From Larkinella rosea (GTDB lineage Bacteria; Bacteroidota; Bacteroidia; Cytophagales; Spirosomataceae), in the NCBI RefSeq assembly GCF_003858635.1, contig NZ_RQJO01000015.1, forward strand, positions 62,001 to 126,000: a DNA stretch of 64,000 bases, read 5' to 3'. This document shows, piece after piece, positions 33,730 through 44,039 of the stretch; positions within the stretch are counted from its first letter, which is position 1, and every line of letters starts with the position of its first letter. The translations under genes and the position numbers were made by a program. The notes under the pieces are model-generated. The model was not told the DNA's origin. It was given only the letters and a program-made list of their open reading frames with translations, and did no database searches.

Positions 33730-33803
33730 CAAGTAATGTCAAGTTTATTGATCAATAAACTTGACATTACTTGTTTCTACTTGTATACTTGGCAAATGCC
33801 AAG
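33730..33803 (+). promoter_or_regulatory. AbiE promoter with 44-bp perfect palindromic operator; leaderless start predicted
   Basis: caagtaatgtcaagtttattga (33730-33751) is followed without spacer by its exact reverse complement (33752-33773). The right half contains TTGACA (33761-33766), and 17 bp later TATACT (33784-33789), a near-ideal sigma-70-type pair. The ATG at 33796 lies 7 bp beyond the -10 element, where transcription would begin, so the mRNA should be leaderless. A second symmetric element, cttggca-aa-tgccaag (33788-33803), covers the start codon. Both suit autorepression by the AbiEi antitoxin. Confidence 0.8.
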
Positions 33804-34524
33804 TATTGCCCAAAAAATAGCACAACGGATTCAAGGCTTGCCCGAAGACATCAGCTTCGGGTACGAGCAGCTTGATATTACCAGAGAGGAATATTCAACG
33901 GCTGCTAAGGTGTTGGAACGCCTTCAGAAAAAGGGAGAGATTAAAAAACTCTCTAAAGGCATTTTCTACAAACCCAAAAAAACTGTTTTTGGTGAGAAAA
34001 GACCGGATGAACAGCAGTTACTGAAACCTTATCTCTATCAAAATGGGCAGCGAACAGCCTATATTACTGGGGATTATCTCTATAATCAGTTGGGTTTGAC
34101 AACTCAGTTGCCTGCCGTGATTAAAATAGCGAGCAGGCATCGAAGAATTTTTATCAACACAGGTGCCATCAAAGCAACGGCTATCAAAAGCTATGTAGAT
34201 GTCACAGAAGATAACTATCAACTATTGGGATTTCTGGATGCTATGAAAGACCTAAAACAAATAGCCGATGTCGACATTGAGAATGCAATTACCATCTTTA
34301 AGGACAGAGTAGGGGCGTTGGATAAGCAACAACGGCAAGCTATGATCCAATATGCCCTGGCATATCCACCACGCGTTAGAGCACTGCTTGGTGCTATATT
34401 GACGGATCTAGATCAACAAGATGGTGTAGATGATCTGCGCAATAGCATTAATCCACTGACAACGTTTAAATTAGCACTCCCCAATCAGCTATTGACGAGT
34501 GCTACAGACTGGAACATCCAATGA
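33796..34524 (+). CDS. AbiEi-like antitoxin / transcriptional regulator (DUF6088 type)
   Basis: The 242-residue protein begins MPSIAQKIAQRIQGLPEDIS and contains an N-terminal winged helix (LERLQKKGEIKKLSKGIFYKPKK), a pattern typical of AbiEi-type antitoxins of the DUF6088 group. An upstream in-frame ATG at 33736 would translate the palindromic operator and is rejected. AbiEi proteins repress their operon by binding inverted repeats and counteract the AbiEii nucleotidyltransferase. The last codons overlap the toxin start by 4 bp (ATGA), the normal layout of type IV abortive-infection systems. Confidence 0.88.
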   Translation: MPSIAQKIAQRIQGLPEDISFGYEQLDITREEYSTAAKVLERLQKKGEIKKLSKGIFYKPKKTVFGEKRPDEQQLLKPYLYQNGQRTAYITGDYLYNQLGLTTQLPAVIKIASRHRRIFINTGAIKATAIKSYVDVTEDNYQLLGFLDAMKDLKQIADVDIENAITIFKDRVGALDKQQRQAMIQYALAYPPRVRALLGAILTDLDQQDGVDDLRNSINPLTTFKLALPNQLLTSATDWNIQ

Positions 34525-35501
34525 AGTTACATGAAGATCAGAATCTTTTCGCCGACGCAGTGACGATCACCGCCCAGCAGATGAATTTGCCTGAGATTTA
34601 TGTCGAGAAGGATTATTGGGTAACACTTGCACTGCAACGTATTTTCACGGGGCCACTTGCCGAATTCACCATCTTTAAAGGGGGAACGGCATTATCAAAG
34701 TGCTTTTCGTTTATCAATCGCTTTTCAGAAGATGTAGATCTGGTACTGTTAAAAGAACCTGGTCTTTCGGCCAACCAATTAAAAGAACGCCTAAAACGTA
34801 TAAGCAATACCGTTTCTGAAGTTCTACCTGAAATCGAAGTCCCAGGCATTACCAACAAAAAGGGTATGATCAGAAAGACGGCGCATTCGTATTCGAGAGT
34901 ATTTAATGGGGAATTTGGGCAGGTACGAGACCTCATTATTCTAGAGTCCACTTGGCTAGGCTCACCAGAACCCGTTATCAAGGGCCAAATCAGTTCATTC
35001 GTTTATGAGATGATGCAATCAAGAGGGCAGGGCGAGTTAGCGAGCCAATACCATCTTTTGCCATTTGAGGTAACGCTATTAGCACCCACACGAACACTTT
35101 GCGAGAAGATCATGAGCCTGGTTCGCTTTTCCTATAGCGAAAAACCGCTTATTGATTTACGGAATAAGATTCGTCATGTCTATGATTTGCATCAGCTTTT
35201 AGAGCAAAAGGATATTTCTGATTTTTTCGATTCCGACAGCTTTGATATGATGCTGCATAAAGTGGGGCAAGACGATGAAATAAGCTTTAGAAACAACAAG
35301 GACTGGTTGTATATCCATCCGTCCCAAGCGTTGATTTTCTCCGAATTGAATCGCATTTGGCCAGAATTACAGCATACCTATAATGGGCCATTCAAAAGTC
35401 TGGTTTTTGGAAAATTACCGGCTGATAAGCTAGTCTTACAAACTCTGAAGCGTATTGCGAAGCGATTGTCTAGAATAAATTGGGTTCTGAAAACTAAATA
35501 A
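34521..35501 (+). CDS. AbiEii-family nucleotidyltransferase toxin
   Basis: The 326-residue protein has the nucleotidyltransferase signature FKGGTALSKCF (GGTALSK at 54-60) followed by the metal-binding RFSEDVDLVL (SEDVDL at 69-74), and the LAPTRTLCEKIMSLVR helix typical of the family. AbiEii toxins transfer nucleotides to tRNA acceptor ends or other targets and stop translation, giving abortive phage defence. The 4-bp overlap with the antitoxin gene supports strict coupling. It is intact. Confidence 0.92.
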   Translation: MKLHEDQNLFADAVTITAQQMNLPEIYVEKDYWVTLALQRIFTGPLAEFTIFKGGTALSKCFSFINRFSEDVDLVLLKEPGLSANQLKERLKRISNTVSEVLPEIEVPGITNKKGMIRKTAHSYSRVFNGEFGQVRDLIILESTWLGSPEPVIKGQISSFVYEMMQSRGQGELASQYHLLPFEVTLLAPTRTLCEKIMSLVRFSYSEKPLIDLRNKIRHVYDLHQLLEQKDISDFFDSDSFDMMLHKVGQDDEISFRNNKDWLYIHPSQALIFSELNRIWPELQHTYNGPFKSLVFGKLPADKLVLQTLKRIAKRLSRINWVLKTK

Positions 35502-35744: not shown

Positions 35745-37187
35745 ATGACGCAAGAGCAAGAAAGTTTTATTCGGGACTATCTGAAATTAATTATAAATGG
35801 AGAGGCTGCGATTTTTGCTGGAGCAGGTCTCTCTGTTGGCGTAGGTTATGTTGATTGGCGTGGACTGCTTCGAGATATAGCAACAGATATTGGCCTTGAG
35901 ATTGATAAAGAAACGGATTTAATATCTCTTGCTCAATTTCATGTGAATGAAAAAGGTGGACGAGGGAAGCTTAATCGAAAGATAATAGAAGAATTTACAG
36001 AGGAAACTGAGGTTTCCGAAAATCATAGAATTCTAGCTAGATTACCAATTCGGACGTTTTGGACAACGAACTATGATTCTTTAATAGAGGATGCTTTAGA
36101 AGAGACGTCGAAACGTGTTGATGTAAAACACACGGTAGATCAGCTACCCGATACTACATATAAGCGAGATGCGGTTGTCTACAAAATGCATGGGGATGCT
36201 AAGCACCCTTCTAAAGCTACAATTACAAAAGATGACTACGAGAAATATCACAAGAATAACGAAGGATTCATTACGACGCTAAGCTCTGACCTCGTTTCTA
36301 AAACGTTTCTCTTTCTGGGATTTAGCTTCACAGATCCTAACCTGGATTATGTTCTTAGCAGAGTGAGGTTGGTATTAGGCGAAAACGCTCGCCCGCATTA
36401 TTGTATCATTAGGCGTGTTAGTCGGAAAGACTACCCAACAGATGCTGATTTTGATTATAGTAAGCGTAGGCAACAATTATTAATTTCGGATCTTCGACGT
36501 TTTCAAATTGAAGCAATTATGATCGAAGATTATTCTGAAATAACTAATTTGTTAAGAGAAATCCAAAACCGTTTTAAACGTAATACAATTTTTATTTCCG
36601 GCAGTGCTGCAGATTATGCACCACATTCAGAAGACGATTCATTAGATTTCATTCATAGTTTAAGCAAAAAACTCGTACAAGAAAAATATTCTGTTGTAAA
36701 TGGCTTTGGTCTAGGTGTAGGCGATGCCATTATAAATGGAGCATTAGAAGCTATATATAGCTCTCCTAAGAAATTAAACGAAGAACAATTAATAATGCGC
36801 CCATTTCCGCAAAAGAAAACAGGAATTAAAGAGCTCGGTGAGCTATGGCAAGAATACCGAGAAAGAATGATATCGTTTGCAGGAATAGCAGTATTTATTT
36901 TTGGTAATAAAATAAATAAAGAAACTGGTAAGTTTGAATCTCTTGCTACAGGAGTTAAAAAAGAATTTGATATAGCTATAAAACAAGGAGTTATCCCAAT
37001 TCCTATTGGGATAACTGGTAGTATGGCCGCAGAGTTATGGGTAGAGGTTGAAAGAGAATTCGGGCAATATTATGCCGGCTTCGAAAATGTAAAATCGTCA
37101 TTTCTAGCCCTGAATGCTCCAGGCAAAAGTCTCAAACAATGCATTCCGTTAATCGTTTCAATTATCGATACAATCAATAAAAAATAA
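35745..37187 (+). CDS. thsA: ThsA: Thoeris NADase effector (SIR2 plus STALD/SLOG domains)
   Basis: The 480-residue protein has an N-terminal SIR2 domain with AIFAGAGLSVG (residues 22-32), N109 in WTTNYDSLIED and H149 in VVYKMHGDA. These correspond in spacing to the catalytic Asn and His of characterised Bacillus cereus ThsA (N112/H152). The C-terminal STALD domain begins near 281 (TIFISGSAADYAP) with the SVVNGFGLGVGDAII nucleotide-binding loop. On binding a cyclic ADP-ribose isomer made by ThsB, ThsA depletes NAD and kills the infected cell. The gene converges on the TIR gene at 37218, with both stops inside one hairpin. Confidence 0.93.
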   Translation: MTQEQESFIRDYLKLIINGEAAIFAGAGLSVGVGYVDWRGLLRDIATDIGLEIDKETDLISLAQFHVNEKGGRGKLNRKIIEEFTEETEVSENHRILARLPIRTFWTTNYDSLIEDALEETSKRVDVKHTVDQLPDTTYKRDAVVYKMHGDAKHPSKATITKDDYEKYHKNNEGFITTLSSDLVSKTFLFLGFSFTDPNLDYVLSRVRLVLGENARPHYCIIRRVSRKDYPTDADFDYSKRRQQLLISDLRRFQIEAIMIEDYSEITNLLREIQNRFKRNTIFISGSAADYAPHSEDDSLDFIHSLSKKLVQEKYSVVNGFGLGVGDAIINGALEAIYSSPKKLNEEQLIMRPFPQKKTGIKELGELWQEYRERMISFAGIAVFIFGNKINKETGKFESLATGVKKEFDIAIKQGVIPIPIGITGSMAAELWVEVEREFGQYYAGFENVKSSFLALNAPGKSLKQCIPLIVSIIDTINKK

Positions 37188-37219
37188 AAGAAATATACTA
37201 ATGGTCACTTCTTTTATTT
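37182..37219. terminator. Bidirectional terminator between thsA and thsB
   Basis: aaataaaagaa (37182-37192) pairs exactly with ttcttttattt (37209-37219). The stem covers the stop codons of both convergent genes, and A/T tracts lie on both sides. Confidence 0.65.
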
Positions 37220-37718
37220 ATATGGCTGTACCCTTGTAAATACCTCTAACTCTGATCGCTTCGTCGATCCAGCTATCAATATTATTTTTAATTGAATTGT
37301 AGGCATCTGTGGGTGTGGGATTGTAAACGGGTACAATAGATCCCATGTTCCAATACCCAACGTTGAATTGATCAAATGGATTTTTTCCTTGACTACACTT
37401 GCCGTTATTAGGGCAGTTCAAATTGTGGATATAAATCCCAACAACAGCCCGACCATCATTCCAGCCTTTTTTTATCTCATATTGTACCCAAGGCCGCTTA
37501 TGTGTTTCTTCGCCTATTAAGACCACTACGGCCTTACGATAATTCATGTTTTCTTGAATCCAGTTCTTTATGGCCTGATCACCACTACGTTTAATTTCTT
37601 CCCATTTATTAAAAGAAACAGGTTCATCACCATCTAAGATCCCCATGTTACGAATTTGTTGAACTCGCATTACGTCGTTATTAAAATGAAAGCTATAAAA
37701 AACACTTTTCTTGGCCAT
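37218..37718 (-). CDS. thsB: ThsB: TIR-like (DUF1863) signal synthase of Thoeris
   Basis: The 166-residue protein starts MAKKSVFYSFHFNNDVMRVQ, the trademark of the DUF1863 TIR-like family, with the catalytic glutamate E81 in RPWVQYEIKKGW (equivalent to the family's E85). KAVVVLIGEETH forms the central strand and loop. On phage infection ThsB proteins turn NAD into a cyclic ADP-ribose isomer that activates ThsA. Convergent placement is less usual than thsB-thsA co-directional operons, so each gene needs its own promoter. Upstream of its start lies a 350-bp AT-rich stretch. Confidence 0.92.
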   Translation of the reverse strand: MAKKSVFYSFHFNNDVMRVQQIRNMGILDGDEPVSFNKWEEIKRSGDQAIKNWIQENMNYRKAVVVLIGEETHKRPWVQYEIKKGWNDGRAVVGIYIHNLNCPNNGKCSQGKNPFDQFNVGYWNMGSIVPVYNPTPTDAYNSIKNNIDSWIDEAIRVRGIYKGTAI

Positions 37719-38070
37719 ACAACTATTAGTTAGCGGGAAAATTACTAGTTTAATGTATAACTATTATTTACATTTTTATACAAATCATATCGGCAATAAT
37801 CTTAATATTGGCTAATATAACATGTATATTATACTGAAAACAAAGTCGTGAAGAACGATGTTTTCCTTAAAGGGAATATTCTTATTTTAAACAGAAATAA
37901 AGATACAAGTAAAATCGTGATCAAAGAAATAGATCCATATATTCTTATTACAATATATGATGGATTTATACATAAAGATATAACTATATGCTTTTATTAA
38001 TCGGTAGGGTAAGGACCTTTGAATAACACCTTTATATTATCATCTTGTATAAATATCTCACCATCGTAAC
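37719..38070. other. AT-rich divergent promoter region, no gene seen
   Basis: It lies between thsB (minus) and the MazG-like gene (plus). A candidate promoter element ttgtataaatatctc is found at about 38,046-38,060, close to the ATG at 38071. There is no open frame or RNA gene that I can recognise; the AT content is among the highest in the window. Confidence 0.4.
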
Positions 38071-38958
38071 ATGACCTTAGACGAATACCAATCGAAGACA
38101 AAAACCACAATACAAAGCTACAATTCAGCCGACCAGAAAAACTTCTTCATGGGTTATTTGGGTCTTGCTGGTGAAGCTGGATCGGTTTTGACCACACTAA
38201 AGAAATTAATCCGAGACGGCGAGGGGTTTGGCAGCTTTGAGAAAGCGCTGAAAGAGGAACTGGGAGATGTACTATGGTATGTATCTGCCATCGCGTCGCA
38301 TTACGGATGTTCTTTAGAAGAGATTGCACAGCAGAATCTATCAAAAACCTACGATCGCTATGAGGAACTCAATTTATTGAGTATTCCGCGCTTTGATGAA
38401 AATTATGAGGAGAAGTTTCCGGACTCATTTGTCATCAGATTCGTTGAAGAACAAGGGGAATACTTTTTAACCGTCAAGATGGTTTGGGAGAATGAAACCA
38501 CTGGCCAATCAATTGAGTTAGGTGATCCATTGACAGATAATTCGTGGAAGCCTAACGATTACAGATATCACGATGTCTTCCATTTAGGCCATGTTGCATT
38601 CCTAGGTTGGTCTCCTGTGCTTAGACAACTAATGAAGCTTAAACGTAAAAGTGATCCTATTGCTTTAGATGCAGAAGATAGAGGGAGACCTCAAGTGGCA
38701 GAGGAAGCTATTACATTGATTGTTTATAACTATGCTAAAGGCAACAAAATGTTGCGTGCAAGTGACCGAATTGACACCGAGTTGCTTAAAATCATTAAAC
38801 AACTGGTTGTTGACCTTGAAGTTTCGTCGGTGACTTTGTATCAATGGGAAAAGACAATCATAGAGTCCTATAGGGTATTTCATCAAATTGTTGAAAATAA
38901 GGGCGGAAAAGTATTAGTCTCACCTAAGAATAGACAATTACAGTATATTGGTAAATAA
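38071..38958 (+). CDS. MazG-like nucleoside triphosphate pyrophosphohydrolase with C-terminal extension
   Basis: Residues 1-95 form the all-alpha NTP-pyrophosphohydrolase fold: LGLAGEAGSVLTTLKKLI and LKEELGDVLWYVSAIASHYG carry the acidic metal ligands (E-x-G and EExGD). The remaining 200 residues, including NDYRYHDVFHLGHVAFLGWS and DRGRPQVAEEAI, form a second domain found in a family of nucleotide pyrophosphohydrolases associated with defence and DNA-modification loci. The enzyme should hydrolyse an unusual (d)NTP to the monophosphate. It is the first gene of a four-gene operon; the next start is 43 bp downstream. Confidence 0.85.
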   Translation: MTLDEYQSKTKTTIQSYNSADQKNFFMGYLGLAGEAGSVLTTLKKLIRDGEGFGSFEKALKEELGDVLWYVSAIASHYGCSLEEIAQQNLSKTYDRYEELNLLSIPRFDENYEEKFPDSFVIRFVEEQGEYFLTVKMVWENETTGQSIELGDPLTDNSWKPNDYRYHDVFHLGHVAFLGWSPVLRQLMKLKRKSDPIALDAEDRGRPQVAEEAITLIVYNYAKGNKMLRASDRIDTELLKIIKQLVVDLEVSSVTLYQWEKTIIESYRVFHQIVENKGGKVLVSPKNRQLQYIGK

Positions 38959-39001
38959 CGACCAAACTGAACCGTTAATCACCTGTATAAAAGATTACAT
39001 C

Positions 39002-40015
39002 ATGTCTATTCATTTCACAAAACTGACAAAACCTAAAAAATCTTTAGCCTACAGCTCTTATTGGCGTTTTGCGGTTAAGCGTCACAACGTTTTCGTTAAA
39101 CGTCTGACCGATCCATATGGCCCTTGGACGGATGATCCGGCTATTCGCGACAACCGCTTCACGAATATTTTTAGAGCTTCTGATCGAGTAAGTCAGTATC
39201 TGATTGATTTACAGTATAATGAACAAGAAATAGCTCAGATATTTTTTAAAACGATTCTTTTCAAAATTTTCAATAAGATTGAAACATATCGCTATCTGGA
39301 ACGTGAGCTCGGTAAAGTAGATTCTATATCATTCTCTCTGGAGAAGTACGATGAATTATTGACACTACGAATGGCGAGTCAGCGCCCGATTTATTCAGCG
39401 GCCTATATCATGCCATCTGCTGGACGCGTATTCGGATACAAATTCAAACACACTAATCATTTGGCGCTGTTAGCCAAAATGATGAAAGATAAAGCGTATA
39501 ATAAAATTGTCGAAACAAAAAGTTTAGAGGAAGTCTACAAGATTTTACTTTCCTACCCATCGTTTGGTAACTTTTTAGCATTTCAATATACCATTGATTT
39601 AAACTATAGCTCCATAATTAACTTCTCCGAAATGGACTTTGTGGTAGCTGGCCCAGGGGCAAAGAGTGGGATCAATAAGTGCTTTGATCATCTTGGTGAT
39701 TACACCTATGAAGACGTCATAAAATTAATGGTAGAAAGCCAGGAAGAAGAGTGTGAACGCTTAGAGTTAGAACTGCCTACACTTTGGGGAAGACGGCTAC
39801 AATTAATTGATTGCCAGAACCTGTTTTGCGAGGTAGACAAATATTTGAGAGTTATTTGTCCTGAATTAAATGGATCGACAGGCCGAACCAGAATAAAACA
39901 GAAATACACTTTTTCTAAAGGGGCAATCTCGTTATTTTTCCCACCAAAATGGAACATTAATCATAAACTCACACCGCTATGCTTAACGAAGGCAAACGCC
40001 GACATGTTTTTATAA
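39002..40015 (+). CDS. Putative DNA base hypermodification protein (5-hmdU DNA kinase helical-domain-like)
   Basis: The 337-residue protein carries the pattern YWRFAVKRHNVFVKRL, PYGPWTDDPAIRDNRFTNIF and RASDRVSQYLIDLQY. I recognise this as the helical HMUDK domain that accompanies 5-hydroxymethyl-dU kinases and related thymine-hypermodification enzymes of phages; DNA-glycosylase-like folds of the aGPT-pyrophosphorylase group share it. No P-loop kinase domain is present. The ATG at 39002 is preferred over a TTG 54 bp upstream that overlaps the preceding gene. Its last 37 bp overlap the TIR gene. A role in DNA base modification or removal is inferred. Confidence 0.72.
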   Translation: MSIHFTKLTKPKKSLAYSSYWRFAVKRHNVFVKRLTDPYGPWTDDPAIRDNRFTNIFRASDRVSQYLIDLQYNEQEIAQIFFKTILFKIFNKIETYRYLERELGKVDSISFSLEKYDELLTLRMASQRPIYSAAYIMPSAGRVFGYKFKHTNHLALLAKMMKDKAYNKIVETKSLEEVYKILLSYPSFGNFLAFQYTIDLNYSSIINFSEMDFVVAGPGAKSGINKCFDHLGDYTYEDVIKLMVESQEEECERLELELPTLWGRRLQLIDCQNLFCEVDKYLRVICPELNGSTGRTRIKQKYTFSKGAISLFFPPKWNINHKLTPLCLTKANADMFL

Positions 40016-40476
40016 GCCATCATCATAAGGATGATGTGCATGTTGATAGTGTTACAAACCTACTCCATAAAAAAGGAGATGATATAAGAAATAGCTCATG
40101 GCGTCAACTTAAACCGGAAAACCAAGAGCGTATTAAGGACAAGCGTGTTAGCGATGAGGTTATTAGACGTTATCTTCGACGAAAAATTTCCTGGGCTGGA
40201 ACAGTTGTTGTTTTAATTGGTAAGGACACTCATACACGACCTTGGGTAAACTGGGAAATCGAAGAAGCAAATAGACAAGGGAAGCGGATAGTAGGAGTAT
40301 ATCTGCGTGGTGGTACGGAAGCTGATGTACCTGAAAGTTTAAAAGACCATGCTACTTCAATAGTTAATTGGAATACGGATAGCATTCAAAGTGCTATTAG
40401 TGGAGAGAATGTATTCAAAACTCCTGAAGGCGCTTCTCGTCCAGCACCATATGAAATGAAATCATCAACTTGCTAA
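39979..40476 (+). CDS. TIR-like (ThsB/DUF1863-like) protein
   Basis: The 165-residue protein reads RRHVFISHHHKDDVHVDSVT, a TIR beta-strand-alpha beginning, then AGTVVVLIGKDTHTRPWVNW with the catalytic glutamate E93 (NWEIEEANRQGK) and RIVGVYLRGG. It is a distant relative of the ThsB at 37218-37718 and has the active-site Glu, so NAD cleavage or cyclisation is likely. It is embedded in the MazG/HMUDK operon: it overlaps the upstream gene by 37 bp and ends 6 bp before the next. It could be an additional ThsB feeding the nearby ThsA or the effector of its own operon. Confidence 0.85.
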   Translation: MLNEGKRRHVFISHHHKDDVHVDSVTNLLHKKGDDIRNSSWRQLKPENQERIKDKRVSDEVIRRYLRRKISWAGTVVVLIGKDTHTRPWVNWEIEEANRQGKRIVGVYLRGGTEADVPESLKDHATSIVNWNTDSIQSAISGENVFKTPEGASRPAPYEMKSSTC

Positions 40477-40482
40477 TGTCTG

Positions 40483-41136
40483 ATGGCTAAAGTCTATATG
40501 TATGTAGTAGACCGAGACTTTGGCTTCGCGCCAAACCCATTTCATGGTTTCTGTACGCTAGCTACTTGTAAACCTAGAATAAGAAATGTAGCAGCACCTG
40601 ATGATTGGGTTATCGGTATGGGTGGAAAGAAGCTTAAAGCTACCGGAAGGTGTGTTTTCGCTATGAAGGTTACCCATGTAGTAACTTACAATGAGTATTG
40701 GACTAACCCTGATTATAATGATAAAAAGCCTATTCCAAATGGAAGTAAACGCATAATGTTAGGTGATAACATTTATTCTCAGCAAGAGAACAACCAATGG
40801 AAACAAGCTCATTCTCACCACAGTTACCCTGATGGCTCAACAAACATTCACAATTTAACTAGAGATACAAAATCTAATAAAGTTCTTATCTCTAAGCACT
40901 TCTATTATTTCGGTAGAGCGGCTCCGATTGTCCCTGATCTACTACTTGCTCGACTTGGCTTTAGAAATGCTATAGGACATAGGACCTTTCCCCTTGCAGA
41001 AGCAAGAGAAATGCTTTCATGGTTAGATCAAGAGTTTCTATATCAGCAGAACCAATTAATAGCTAACCCATTTAATTTTGATAAAGGTATAACTCATTAT
41101 TCTGTGGAGAATAACCGTATCACAGTCATAAAGTAA
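40483..41136 (+). CDS. Nucleotide-modification-associated protein (Nmad2-like)
   Basis: The 217-residue protein begins MAKVYMYVVDRDFGFAPNPF and contains HGFCTLATCKPRIRNVA and DDWVIGMGGKKLKATGRCVF, the hallmark of the Nmad2 group predicted to act in modified-nucleotide systems. A ASCH/PUA-like barrel with an LISKHFYYFGRAAP segment follows. No catalytic chemistry has been established for this group to my knowledge. It closes the operon 6 bp behind the TIR gene, implying coupled expression. Confidence 0.78.
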   Translation: MAKVYMYVVDRDFGFAPNPFHGFCTLATCKPRIRNVAAPDDWVIGMGGKKLKATGRCVFAMKVTHVVTYNEYWTNPDYNDKKPIPNGSKRIMLGDNIYSQQENNQWKQAHSHHSYPDGSTNIHNLTRDTKSNKVLISKHFYYFGRAAPIVPDLLLARLGFRNAIGHRTFPLAEAREMLSWLDQEFLYQQNQLIANPFNFDKGITHYSVENNRITVIK

Positions 41137-41283
41137 GACTGATAAATTGGTAGCGCTAAATAAATCTGCTAGATTAATTTAGCAATAATTGAAATAGCTT
41201 TGTCATTTAGGCTAAGAAACTAAATGATCACCCAAAGAATATTCCTACACCATTATATCTAATACTTTTTAATTGTCAAGAAT

Positions 41284-42558
41284 ATGGAAATTAAATGTTC
41301 AGTTTTTTTGCCATTTAGTGATCGTTTTACTTTTGTTTTTGACGCGTTGAATAAAGTAAAGCCTATTGTTTATAAAGAGACAACAATATATTTTACTTTT
41401 TTTAGAGCAGATGATGAATATGTGACCGATAGTTTAGCAATCGATAAAATCAAAGAGTTGATTAGAGAATGTGATATTGCCTTATTTGATTTAACCACCT
41501 TCAGGCCGAACGTTTGTTGGGAGTTAGGTTTTGCAGAAGGTATCGAAAAAGATATATTTATTCTTTATGATAAAAACTATCAAAAAAACATAAGAAAATT
41601 TAAGAAAATATTTCCATTGAACTTGAGTGGTAGGGAAAGAATTAATTATAAGTTTAGTGTTGAAGGCTTAAAGAACTTTGAGGCTGATATTGAATCTAAG
41701 CTAAAATCAACTATTCCCAAAATTATCGCAAAAAAAGAAACATTATATAAAGACAAAGATGTTGAAGATTATTTAAATAATATAAAATCTGGATTGAAAA
41801 AAATTAAAAATGATTCTCTATTGAAAAATTTAGCAAAAGGAGAATTACAACGATTAGGTAATCGGATTTCAAATTTACAAAAAGGAGTTTTTGACTTAAG
41901 GAATAGAAAACCTAGCAAAGATGTAATAAAATATTACGCCTTTTATTTGTCACAACTCGATAACGAAGATTGTAAATTTCTGACAATTACGCATTTCAAT
42001 TTTTGGAACTTTATAACTAGGAACGGACAAGATTGGTCTTACTTTGATAAGAATATAGAGGCCGTTAAAAAAGGAACATTACTTCAGAGAATATTTAGAG
42101 TACCTATTAATGAAAAAGGAGAGATAATTTATCGCCCTAATGAGGAAAAATTTGCAAAAGAATTATTGAATCGCCATTTTGGTGCAGCTAAAGATAACGC
42201 CCAATATAAAGGAAAATTAGAGCTAAAAATATCGTATGTCGAAGATAATCGGTCAATTGATAGATTTGGAAACATGGCTCTATGGTATAAAAAAGATCAG
42301 CGCATGATGTTTAAACCATCCTATGAATTGAAAGAAGAGTCTAACCCTTTAAAAGAAACAATTCTCACTTATTGGGAAAAGAAAAGAGACATTGAAAAGA
42401 AAGGAAATACTGAAAAGAATAAAAGTACGATAGAAAGTGGAGAAAATCAGGCCGAATTTATTTCAGCTGAAAATGATTTCAATTATGCTTGGAAAGAAAG
42501 CAAAATTCTTGACAAAGAGTTATTAAGTAAAATTTTAAAAAATCAAATAATTAAATAA
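41284..42558 (+). CDS. TIR/nucleoside 2-deoxyribosyltransferase-like protein with C-terminal extension
   Basis: The N-terminal domain (about 1-125) has the Rossmann-like plan of TIR and deoxyribosyltransferase folds: CSVFLPFSDRFTFVFDAL, FFRADDEYVTDSLAIDKIK, then IRECDIALFDLTTFRPNVCWELGFAEG with the putative catalytic E80. The D-L-T-x-N-P-N-V-x-x-E-L-G-like motif is typical of NAD-cleaving effectors and of nucleotide-binding TIR-like proteins. A linker (about 125-200, charged, helical) leads to a C-terminal domain of unknown type (FLTITHFNFWNFITRNG, LLQRIFRVPINEKGEII). It lies 17 bp ahead of the PEP-module gene on the same strand, so both should form a unit. Confidence 0.75.
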   Translation: MEIKCSVFLPFSDRFTFVFDALNKVKPIVYKETTIYFTFFRADDEYVTDSLAIDKIKELIRECDIALFDLTTFRPNVCWELGFAEGIEKDIFILYDKNYQKNIRKFKKIFPLNLSGRERINYKFSVEGLKNFEADIESKLKSTIPKIIAKKETLYKDKDVEDYLNNIKSGLKKIKNDSLLKNLAKGELQRLGNRISNLQKGVFDLRNRKPSKDVIKYYAFYLSQLDNEDCKFLTITHFNFWNFITRNGQDWSYFDKNIEAVKKGTLLQRIFRVPINEKGEIIYRPNEEKFAKELLNRHFGAAKDNAQYKGKLELKISYVEDNRSIDRFGNMALWYKKDQRMMFKPSYELKEESNPLKETILTYWEKKRDIEKKGNTEKNKSTIESGENQAEFISAENDFNYAWKESKILDKELLSKILKNQIIK

Positions 42559-42575
42559 ATAATCCTACGATAAAT

Positions 42576-44039
42576 ATGGTTGATAATAATATTATTGCTA
42601 CAGGTTATGGTGGACTAGATTTGTCTACTGGAGGAGAATTAGTAGTCTGGAATCGAACTAACTTAACTATTTTAGAAGGTAAAATAGTTTATGTAGGTAG
42701 TAGCTTGCCCTTATATCAAGCTGCATTAATAGCCAAATATAAACCAGCTGGTGTTATACTGGCGATAGGTAACCGAAATTACCATCCGCTTATATTTTTC
42801 AAAGATTTGCTAATTCCGTGTATAGCTGGTACTGGTCTTATAGATCCGCTACCATCCTATGTATTCATGAGCTGTAAAAAAGGAATTATATATAGCCACT
42901 CAATAATAGATGATCAAAAGAAAAATAATATATACGAAGTGATTGATACTGATAATGAAGAAGTATTTGCAAATATAGGATCAGAAGAAGCTATTGAAAT
43001 ATCATATAAAATAGGTGCAGCAGGTATAGGTATATTTAGAACTGAGTTTACTGCTGTTAGAATGTTAGCGGAACACCTCAATTACCTTCTTAAGCCAAAC
43101 TATACTTTAGAGAATTATATTATAGAGAATTCAGAAGCTGACGCGATTTATCTTGTTGCTAATCATTCTCAATTGCAGATATATTTAAAAGAGGCATTTA
43201 TTAAAGTAATAAGATTAGCACTGCGTTATTTTCCAGAGAAATCAATAATAATTAGATCTATCGATATTGAAAGAGATGAAAGAGATAGCCTTGGTTATAG
43301 AGGTATAAGAAGATGCATAGCTGAGAATGGAGGAGTATTGAAAATAATAATCCAGGCATTGAAAGAGATTTCTTTGGAAACTAATCATAAAAATATTTCT
43401 CTTATATTTCCTTTAGTTTCAGAATACAGTCAAATATCAATTGCAACAAATATGGTACTTGATAGTGGCTTGCAAATTTCAAATAGCTCTTTAAGGAATT
43501 ATATTAAAATTGGTTGGAAAATTGAACAACCATCTTCAGCTTTAAATACTAATATTTGGTTGAATACGTTTTTTTTAGATTTTGATGTTTTTCCGCATTA
43601 TTTGGGAATAGGTACTAATGACCTAACTCAATTTACGCTTGGTGTAGGAAGATATATTCCCTTCACTGTAGAAACTAGTGTAGTTAGAAAATATATAGAT
43701 AATTTATACAATGAATTTGATTTTGCTATAATTAAACAACTTATACTTATTTCCAGAAGTGTTGCTAATAAAAACACTATAGTAATAATACATGGCGAAC
43801 TAGCTGCTGATAATCGTATTGCAAGGCTGTTGAATTTTTTAAAGATATATCCTTCTGTTACTGTTTTAAAATTAAATGATGTATTTAATTCATTTCGCAA
43901 ATTAAGACATTTTGATGTTTCTTTTGAAGAAGCGCTGAATGATATTATTGATAATGAGGTTGTTTCTTTAAGAGAAAAAGATTTTATAAAAAAAGATTTA
44001 AAATTTTGGCTACAAAGTCTGTCGTATTTAGATCAATAA
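42576..44039 (+). CDS. Stand-alone PEP-phosphotransfer module (swivel plus PEP-binding barrel) of unknown role
   Basis: The 487-residue protein aligns by motif with the C-terminal parts of PTS enzyme I and PEP synthase. A swivel domain holds H70 (GNRNYHPLIFFKDLLIPCIAGT), with the 11-residue His-to-Pro spacing of the phosphorylated histidine in enzyme I. The TIM-barrel shows GIGIFRTEF (R155), IIRSID (R227), GYRGIRRCIAENG, IGWKIEQPSSA (E317), GTNDLTQFTLGVGR (N348, D349, R359). The acid/base Cys of the family (CGEL/CGEM) is replaced by His406 in IIHGELAAD. It has neither the HPr-binding helices nor an ATP-grasp domain. Base composition is strongly AT-rich. A phosphoryl acceptor is unknown. Confidence 0.8.
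   Translation: MVDNNIIATGYGGLDLSTGGELVVWNRTNLTILEGKIVYVGSSLPLYQAALIAKYKPAGVILAIGNRNYHPLIFFKDLLIPCIAGTGLIDPLPSYVFMSCKKGIIYSHSIIDDQKKNNIYEVIDTDNEEVFANIGSEEAIEISYKIGAAGIGIFRTEFTAVRMLAEHLNYLLKPNYTLENYIIENSEADAIYLVANHSQLQIYLKEAFIKVIRLALRYFPEKSIIIRSIDIERDERDSLGYRGIRRCIAENGGVLKIIIQALKEISLETNHKNISLIFPLVSEYSQISIATNMVLDSGLQISNSSLRNYIKIGWKIEQPSSALNTNIWLNTFFLDFDVFPHYLGIGTNDLTQFTLGVGRYIPFTVETSVVRKYIDNLYNEFDFAIIKQLILISRSVANKNTIVIIHGELAADNRIARLLNFLKIYPSVTVLKLNDVFNSFRKLRHFDVSFEEALNDIIDNEVVSLREKDFIKKDLKFWLQSLSYLDQ

Follow-up and report, generated by a model that had tools for sequence, protein, structure and literature searches.

Positions 38071-41136 of a 64,000-nucleotide stretch of Larkinella rosea DNA (assembly GCF_003858635.1, contig NZ_RQJO01000015.1, positions 62,001 to 126,000; hereafter the window) hold four closely spaced genes that encode a MazG protein, a protein with an HMUDK_hel domain, a TIR protein and an Nmad2 protein. 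A preliminary description of this DNA proposed that they may form a defense operon in which the TIR protein is the killing or signaling arm. The features of the operon are as follows.

38071..38958, plus strand: gene for a protein with MazG and MazG_C domains (Pfam; MazG_C PF18722, 189 bits; MazG PF03819, 32.6 bits)
39002..40015, plus strand: HMUDK_hel gene (Pfam PF18723, 324.1 bits), helical domain only
39979..40476, plus strand: gene for an Nmad2-linked ThsB-type TIR protein, here called TIR2 (Pfam ThsB_TIR PF08937, 76.2 bits; PADLOC PDLC00418, 172.8 bits)
39979..40015, plus strand: 37-bp overlap of the HMUDK_hel and TIR genes
40255..40257, plus strand: codon for Glu93 of the TIR protein, which aligns with the Glu of solved ThsB proteins
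40471..40473, plus strand: codon for the C-terminal Cys165 of the TIR protein
40483..41136, plus strand: Nmad2 gene (Pfam PF18753, 240.1 bits)

The spacing described for these same-strand genes (a 43-bp gap, a 37-bp overlap and a 6-bp gap) is confirmed by the coordinates of the open reading frames (ORFs), and the family names of all four proteins hold, with each Pfam score exceeding its curated cut-off; the proteins encoded at 39002-40015 and 40483-41136, proposed for checking by hidden Markov model (HMM), lie inside HMUDK_hel and Nmad2, respectively. The mechanical ORF call places the start of the second gene at TTG 38948, and ATG 39002 agrees with the family alignment. No NCBIfam family was found for any of the four proteins at an E-value of 1e-3. 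The region 37600-41400 contains 18 promoter-like sites (shuffled mean 13.4, sd 3.9), and no terminator-like site was found in it.

All 29 aligned relatives of the MazG protein share its E35, E62 and D66, and 28 of them have E63, acidic residues that are candidate metal-binding positions; position 38 is Ser in 17 of the 29 and Glu in seven. The second protein had been called an HMUDK-like base-hypermodification protein, a name of which the HMUDK_hel domain stands and the kinase does not: only the helical domain is present, with no P-loop kinase domain and no other Pfam family at E-values up to 1, and the protein alone is therefore not a complete 5-hydroxymethyldeoxyuridine (5-hmdU) DNA kinase. 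Its predicted fold bears a weak likeness to phage PUGT, the nearest structure, and to helix-hairpin-helix DNA glycosylases. The predicted fold of Nmad2 is weakly similar to PUA-like readers (YTH/ASCH), and on this model Nmad2 is a possible, if weak, candidate for a modified-base reader. Sequence searches of the PDB returned no credible relative of either protein.

The catalytic Glu93 is kept in all 42 aligned TIR2 proteins, and each of these has a Cys within its last six residues, versus none of 36 other single-domain TIR proteins from the same loci. On a quick tree of 78 TIR proteins the TIR2 label requires 2 changes, versus a shuffled mean of 26, although the tool flags long branches meeting. 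Across our phylum sample, the PADLOC model PDLC00418 scores 139-212 bits in five genomes and 72 bits in the next, and these five are the genomes in which a TIR gene adjoins Nmad2. Because high scores for this "ThsB" model are confined to Nmad2-linked TIRs in that sample, annotation pipelines may be counting TIR2 loci as plain Thoeris.

Our survey comprised 98 loci: 80 from a profile scan of a genome collection for HMUDK_hel (the best 80 loci out of at least 252 confirmed relatives), six HMUDK loci from the phylum sample (7 of its 395 genomes have HMUDK_hel), two loci anchored on Nmad2 (L110, L111), nine plasmid loci found via Nmad2, and the window. Nine of the 16 plasmid Nmad2 records were taken in; of H7 and H9 only the coordinates entered the analysis, and H10, H12, H13, H15 and H16 were left out. 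The scanned HMUDK loci span Bacteroidota, Bacillota, Pseudomonadota, Cyanobacteriota, Planctomycetota, Chloroflexota and other phyla. In 41 of the 98 loci a same-strand TIR gene immediately precedes Nmad2 (30 anchored on HMUDK, including the window, and 11 on Nmad2, some of them cut by contig ends), and the other 57 are HMUDK loci without this pair, two of which (L010 and L035) have identical HMUDK proteins and are apparently one genome counted twice. Nine Nmad2 loci without a TIR match (L112-L120) stand outside this tally. Partner-gene labels come from Pfam or record annotation for one example each and from in-house HMMs for the rest, and iterated HMM labels blend single-domain TIR families together, and HMUDK with kinase-HMUDK fusions.

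These 41 loci, in which the TIR-Nmad2 pair sits beside MazG, HMUDK, thymidylate synthase or uracil-DNA glycosylase (UDG) genes, bear out the expectation that the genes co-occur elsewhere. We rejected the idea that TIR and Nmad2 are chance neighbors, as the pair recurs in the phylum sample, on plasmids, across the 41 surveyed loci and in a clade of seven that includes the window. Nmad2 adjoins TIR in 11 of 11 plasmid records in which at least 80% of TIR is covered. Four IMG/VR contigs have an Nmad2 match: L191 repeats a Parabacteroides locus (L129), L192 carries TIR, Nmad2, MazG and UDG together with genes of the SLOG, TIR and ThsB types, and in both L190 and L193 Nmad2, MazG and UDG are accompanied by a small protein that stands in the place of TIR, has no Pfam match and ends in or near a Cys. 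We also rejected the notion that all Nmad2 loci are alike, since 9 of the 14 phylum-sample Nmad2 genomes (L112-L120) have no TIR-seed match near Nmad2 at an E-value of 1e-4; an Nmad3 gene adjoins Nmad2 in L112 (155 bits, Pfam) and, by eye, in L116.

Loci with the pair are also rich in candidate effectors, in classes defined by thresholds that we set and counted within 8 kb. ThsA occurs at 6, SLOG proteins at 18 and TIR effectors at 18 of the 41 pair loci, and at least one of the three at 26 (22 of the 30 HMUDK-anchored loci and 4 of the 11 Nmad2-anchored loci), versus none of the 57 loci without the pair, a count that leaves out a ThsA-like match more than 8 kb away in L032 and a sub-threshold SLOG-like match of 75 bits in L034. 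The corresponding Fisher p value, 1.7e-13, takes no account of shared descent and serves as description only. Patatin genes occur at three of the pair loci, transmembrane genes at four and members of an unnamed family, Pat129, at two, and 34 of the 41 have some effector-like gene, extra TIRs included; something effector-like is present in two of the 57 (L028, L085). Pfam types the SLOG proteins as LD_cluster2 in L013, L074, L090, L122 and L127 and as LD_cluster3 in L015, L017, L018, L061, L094, L124 and L128, the remaining SLOG assignments being made with in-house HMMs. Small, mutually similar proteins that appear by eye to span the membrane are encoded beside TIR genes in three loci (L060:18944-19465, L124:1179-1661 and L129:6989-7489); they have no convincing Pfam match and are possible new membrane effectors.

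The clade of seven (Shimodaira-Hasegawa-like approximate likelihood ratio test [SH-aLRT] support 99; the window, L013, L015, L016, L017, L018 and L019) keeps MazG, HMUDK, TIR and Nmad2 constant, except that two genes are inserted in L013 and MazG is lost to a contig end in L017, while its effector varies between ThsA and TIR+SLOG pairs. With the ATG of the family taken as the start, the HMUDK and TIR genes share 37 bp in five of the seven members (the window, L013, L015, L018 and L019) and 34 bp in L017; in L016 they share 7 bp, and 37 bp there would require an upstream GTG start. To judge from these sequences, the overlap is more than chance. ThsA ends 16 bp before MazG in L019, and TIR2 is the only PF08937 match reported in that genome, one of its two further TIR genes falling just below the cut-off at 20.7 bits.

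Directly upstream of the operon in the window lie a ThsA gene and a second ThsB gene, both overlooked in the preliminary description.

35745..37187, plus strand: ThsA, with a SIR2 NADase domain and a STALD SLOG ligand-sensor domain, the proposed effector (Pfam SIR2_2, 106 bits; STALD, 246 bits; PADLOC ThsA1, 670 bits)
37218..37718, minus strand: canonical ThsB TIR of the adjoining Thoeris pair (Pfam ThsB_TIR, 87.9 bits; PADLOC ThsB, 227 bits)
33736-35501: AbiEi/AbiEii type IV toxin-antitoxin pair, adjoining the Thoeris pair (Pfam, PADLOC)

ThsA matches solved ThsA 6lhx with an E-value of 7e-152 in a PDB sequence search, which also lists KomC. From ThsA through Nmad2 the G+C content is 0.37-0.40, versus 0.44 for the window. 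PADLOC reports AbiEi/AbiEii, then ThsA and ThsB, then the TIR of the operon, which it labels ThsB; with AbiE genes beside a Thoeris pair this is therefore a defense island, and the defense setting supposed for the operon is supported. No CD-NTase gene, the hallmark of the cyclic-oligonucleotide-based antiphage signaling system (CBASS), was found among 10 window proteins scanned with Pfam.

CBASS and Thoeris both join a sensor and signal core that stays constant to an effector that can be swapped. Because our loci follow the same plan, we read the operon, with a probability of roughly 0.5, as the core of a modular, Thoeris-like system of abortive infection, in which it would supply sensing and signaling: a module that senses thymidine modification would, in this genome, drive ThsA. 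Of the two roles proposed for the TIR protein, signaling is the more likely, since the protein is ThsB-type and the loci often carry separate SLOG, ThsA, patatin or transmembrane genes; in the window the likely killing arm is ThsA, outside the coordinates first described. A generic TIR killer was set aside, as the protein matches ThsB families and effector-like genes adjoin it. The operon resembles type I Thoeris in that a SIR2-SLOG ThsA adjoins it and its TIR is a ThsB-family protein with the conserved Glu, labeled ThsB by PADLOC; it differs in that this TIR has a C-terminal Cys and is tied to Nmad2 and nucleotide-modifying genes, and in that other TIR2 loci have TIR+SLOG, patatin or membrane genes in place of ThsA.

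Alternatively, two independent systems could lie side by side: an ordinary Thoeris system made of ThsA and the ThsB at 37218, and a four-gene system whose TIR is an NADase effector gated by Nmad2. ThsA and the adjoining ThsB do form a complete pair according to PADLOC, the AbiE genes nearby mark a defense island, ThsA occurs without the cassette in another genome (G070), and 7 of the 41 pair loci have no scored effector. Yet in L019 and L084 the cassette operon itself includes ThsA, and the distribution of SLOG, ThsA and TIR effectors (26 of 41 versus 0 of 57) also speaks against two separate systems; we regard this explanation as unlikely, if well worth keeping in view.

The genes that adjoin the pair at one locus or another are those for MazG, HMUDK, thymidylate synthase, thymidylate-kinase-like, dCTP-deaminase-like, DUF1599 (Nmad1), UDG, radical SAM or methyltransferase proteins. 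HMUDK is common but not obligate, since it occurs in only 5 of the 11 Nmad2-anchored loci (MazG in eight, UDG in three), and MazG plus UDG replaces MazG plus HMUDK in L122, L124 and L128. The presence of UDG beside MazG at these three loci, where HMUDK was not found, would fit a restriction-like system that targets phages with 5-hmdU-type thymidine-modified DNA, in which the base in the phage DNA is completed, cut out or bound by HMUDK_hel (or UDG) and TIR aborts the infection. Such a system would also fit the occurrence of HMUDK_hel relatives in 390 of 50,697 phage records, a collection that gave zero matches to Nmad2, and DNA glycosylases are known defense enzymes according to the accessible text of PMC11078745. 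Many relatives of the operon, however, carry thymidylate synthase and kinase-like genes, suggesting that the host itself makes the modified nucleotide, and we consider a restriction-like system rather improbable.

Correlations between protein distances divide the core into roughly two modules, TIR-Nmad2 (r 0.73, n 41) and HMUDK-MazG (r 0.73, n 19), with a border blurred by MazG (Nmad2-MazG 0.62 and TIR-MazG 0.57, n 22 each); HMUDK is less closely tied to the pair (Nmad2-HMUDK 0.49 and TIR-HMUDK 0.22, n 35 each). In a quick tree of 92 HMUDK rows, with SH-aLRT as its only support measure, the TIR2 label must change 18 times, at least 8 of the changes being forced by starred branches, versus a shuffled mean of 28, which indicates that TIR2 joined HMUDK repeatedly and was also inherited in places. 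An exchange of two modules, as the correlations roughly suggest, together with the conserved acidic residues of MazG, could mean that MazG and HMUDK_hel act as an antitoxin-like off-switch that removes a nucleotide or messenger before it can trigger TIR; at the 57 other HMUDK loci no TIR-Nmad2 pair was found for them to restrain, and this possibility appears very improbable to us.

In the Thoeris-like reading, whose catalytic and regulatory steps, like phage defense itself, we propose from gene content, linkage, conserved residues and effector swapping, MazG and HMUDK_hel would have a thymidine-type nucleotide or DNA base as their substrate, with thymidylate synthase, thymidylate-kinase-like, dCTP-deaminase-like or UDG enzymes taking part at other loci. 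Nmad2 would then read the resulting, or a phage-borne, modified base or nucleotide, and its regular partner, the ThsB-type TIR, would convert NAD+ to an ADP-ribose messenger; in type I Thoeris the TIR product that opens ThsA is an isomer of cyclic ADP-ribose (cADPR). A SLOG effector (here ThsA) would bind the messenger, and its SIR2 domain would destroy NAD+, stopping the cell.

A more speculative extension, which we consider a long shot, gives the C-terminal Cys of TIR2 the part of a chemical handle. An activated thymidine (of the 5-phosphomethyl-deoxyuridine type, handled by a PUGT-like HMUDK_hel) might be coupled to or contact the thiol, so that TIR would be tethered to or loaded with the modified base held by Nmad2, switching on NAD+ signaling to ThsA or other effectors. 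The idea draws on the restriction of this Cys to TIR2 (42 of 42 versus 0 of 36), on the small proteins that replace TIR in L190 and L193 and also end in or near a Cys, and on the PUGT-like predicted fold of HMUDK_hel. If true, it would be an immune alarm fired by covalent capture of a modified nucleobase.

The operon shares the HMUDK_hel domain with the phage thymidine hypermodification enzymes (HMUDK, aGPT-Pplase/PUGT), among which PUGT comes nearest, if weakly, to the predicted fold of its HMUDK_hel protein; it differs from them in being bacterial, in lacking a P-loop kinase domain and in its coupling to TIR and Nmad2. Kongming (KomABC), a nucleotide-sensing SIR2 defense in which an unusual nucleotide reportedly switches on an NADase, has a similar logic and a component, KomC, among the PDB matches of ThsA, but it uses different enzymes, and our proposal inserts a TIR messenger. 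We know of no TIR signaling in Brig1-type defensive DNA glycosylases. These enzymes resemble the operon in placing a base-recognizing enzyme in phage defense (PMC11078745, accessible text). The DefensePredictor systems (5-hmdU kinase, thymidylate synthase, dNMP kinase, NMAD, MazG/MazG-C and UDG) involve the same domain families: the accessible text of PMC13092281 lists aGPT-Pplase, MazG, MazG-C, UDG and an Nmad domain among the domains from which predicted defense systems are built, citing Burroughs 2015 for several of them, and describes a validated E. coli defense system with a 5-hydroxymethyluracil kinase. Its main text, compared here by wording rather than operon drawings, does not mention TIR, ThsB or Thoeris. 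The preliminary claim that no system with this gene set had been described thus needs qualifying: the domains had already been flagged as defensive, while the TIR-coupled architecture is apparently undescribed, as our literature searches, with subscription literature mostly outside their reach, returned no description of the TIR-Nmad2 core or of its coupling to SLOG effectors.

How Thoeris-type TIRs sense their trigger is largely open; phage capsids are reported as a trigger of a staphylococcal system (PMC12578639, accessible text). A TIR group from many phyla that is tied to a putative modified-base reader and thymidine-processing enzymes makes nucleotide or base modification directly testable as a trigger. 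If correct, the Thoeris-like reading would suggest a role for the bacterial HMUDK_hel, MazG_C and Nmad2 families and would have a single signaling core feeding SIR2, TIR, patatin and membrane effectors.

Two further same-strand genes follow Nmad2 in the window. The first (41284-42558; G+C 0.285) has a weak nucleoside-deoxyribosyltransferase-like match (24.1 bits, below the cut-off), and the second (42576-44039) encodes a protein with a phosphoenolpyruvate-utilizing-enzyme C-terminal domain; neither protein matches any ORF of the surveyed loci at an E-value of 0.01, and both genes therefore seem to lie outside the system.

Upstream of HMUDK, the 57 pair-less loci mostly have a helix-turn-helix (HTH) gene, an IrrE-like gene and an unassigned gene, the first two labels being Pfam-checked for L010 only, where the third gene has no Pfam match. 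A second widespread layout (L009-L012 and many of L024-L093) consists of a small acyl carrier protein (ACP)-like gene, HTH, IrrE-like and unassigned genes, a kinase-HMUDK fusion or neighboring kinase and HMUDK genes, MazG or thymidylate synthase, and AcpS. ACP-like ORFs occur in 40 of the 98 loci and AcpS in 25; AcpS (PF01648) is confirmed by Pfam in L057. The ACP label is a judgment by eye (Pfam finds nothing in the L010 protein) and the DSL motif is kept in only 14 of the 40 ORFs, so we do not rely on the parallel between ACP/AcpS and the TIR2 thiol.

DNA probes from L074 and L193 gave no match in an E. coli collection. In L193 itself, the genes for MazG, UDG, the small protein and Nmad2 (L193:5718-8594) lie beside an integrase gene, identified by eye, and a Zn_Ribbon_Prim primase (Pfam), presumably of the P4 type, and this locus is possibly a satellite defense hotspot.

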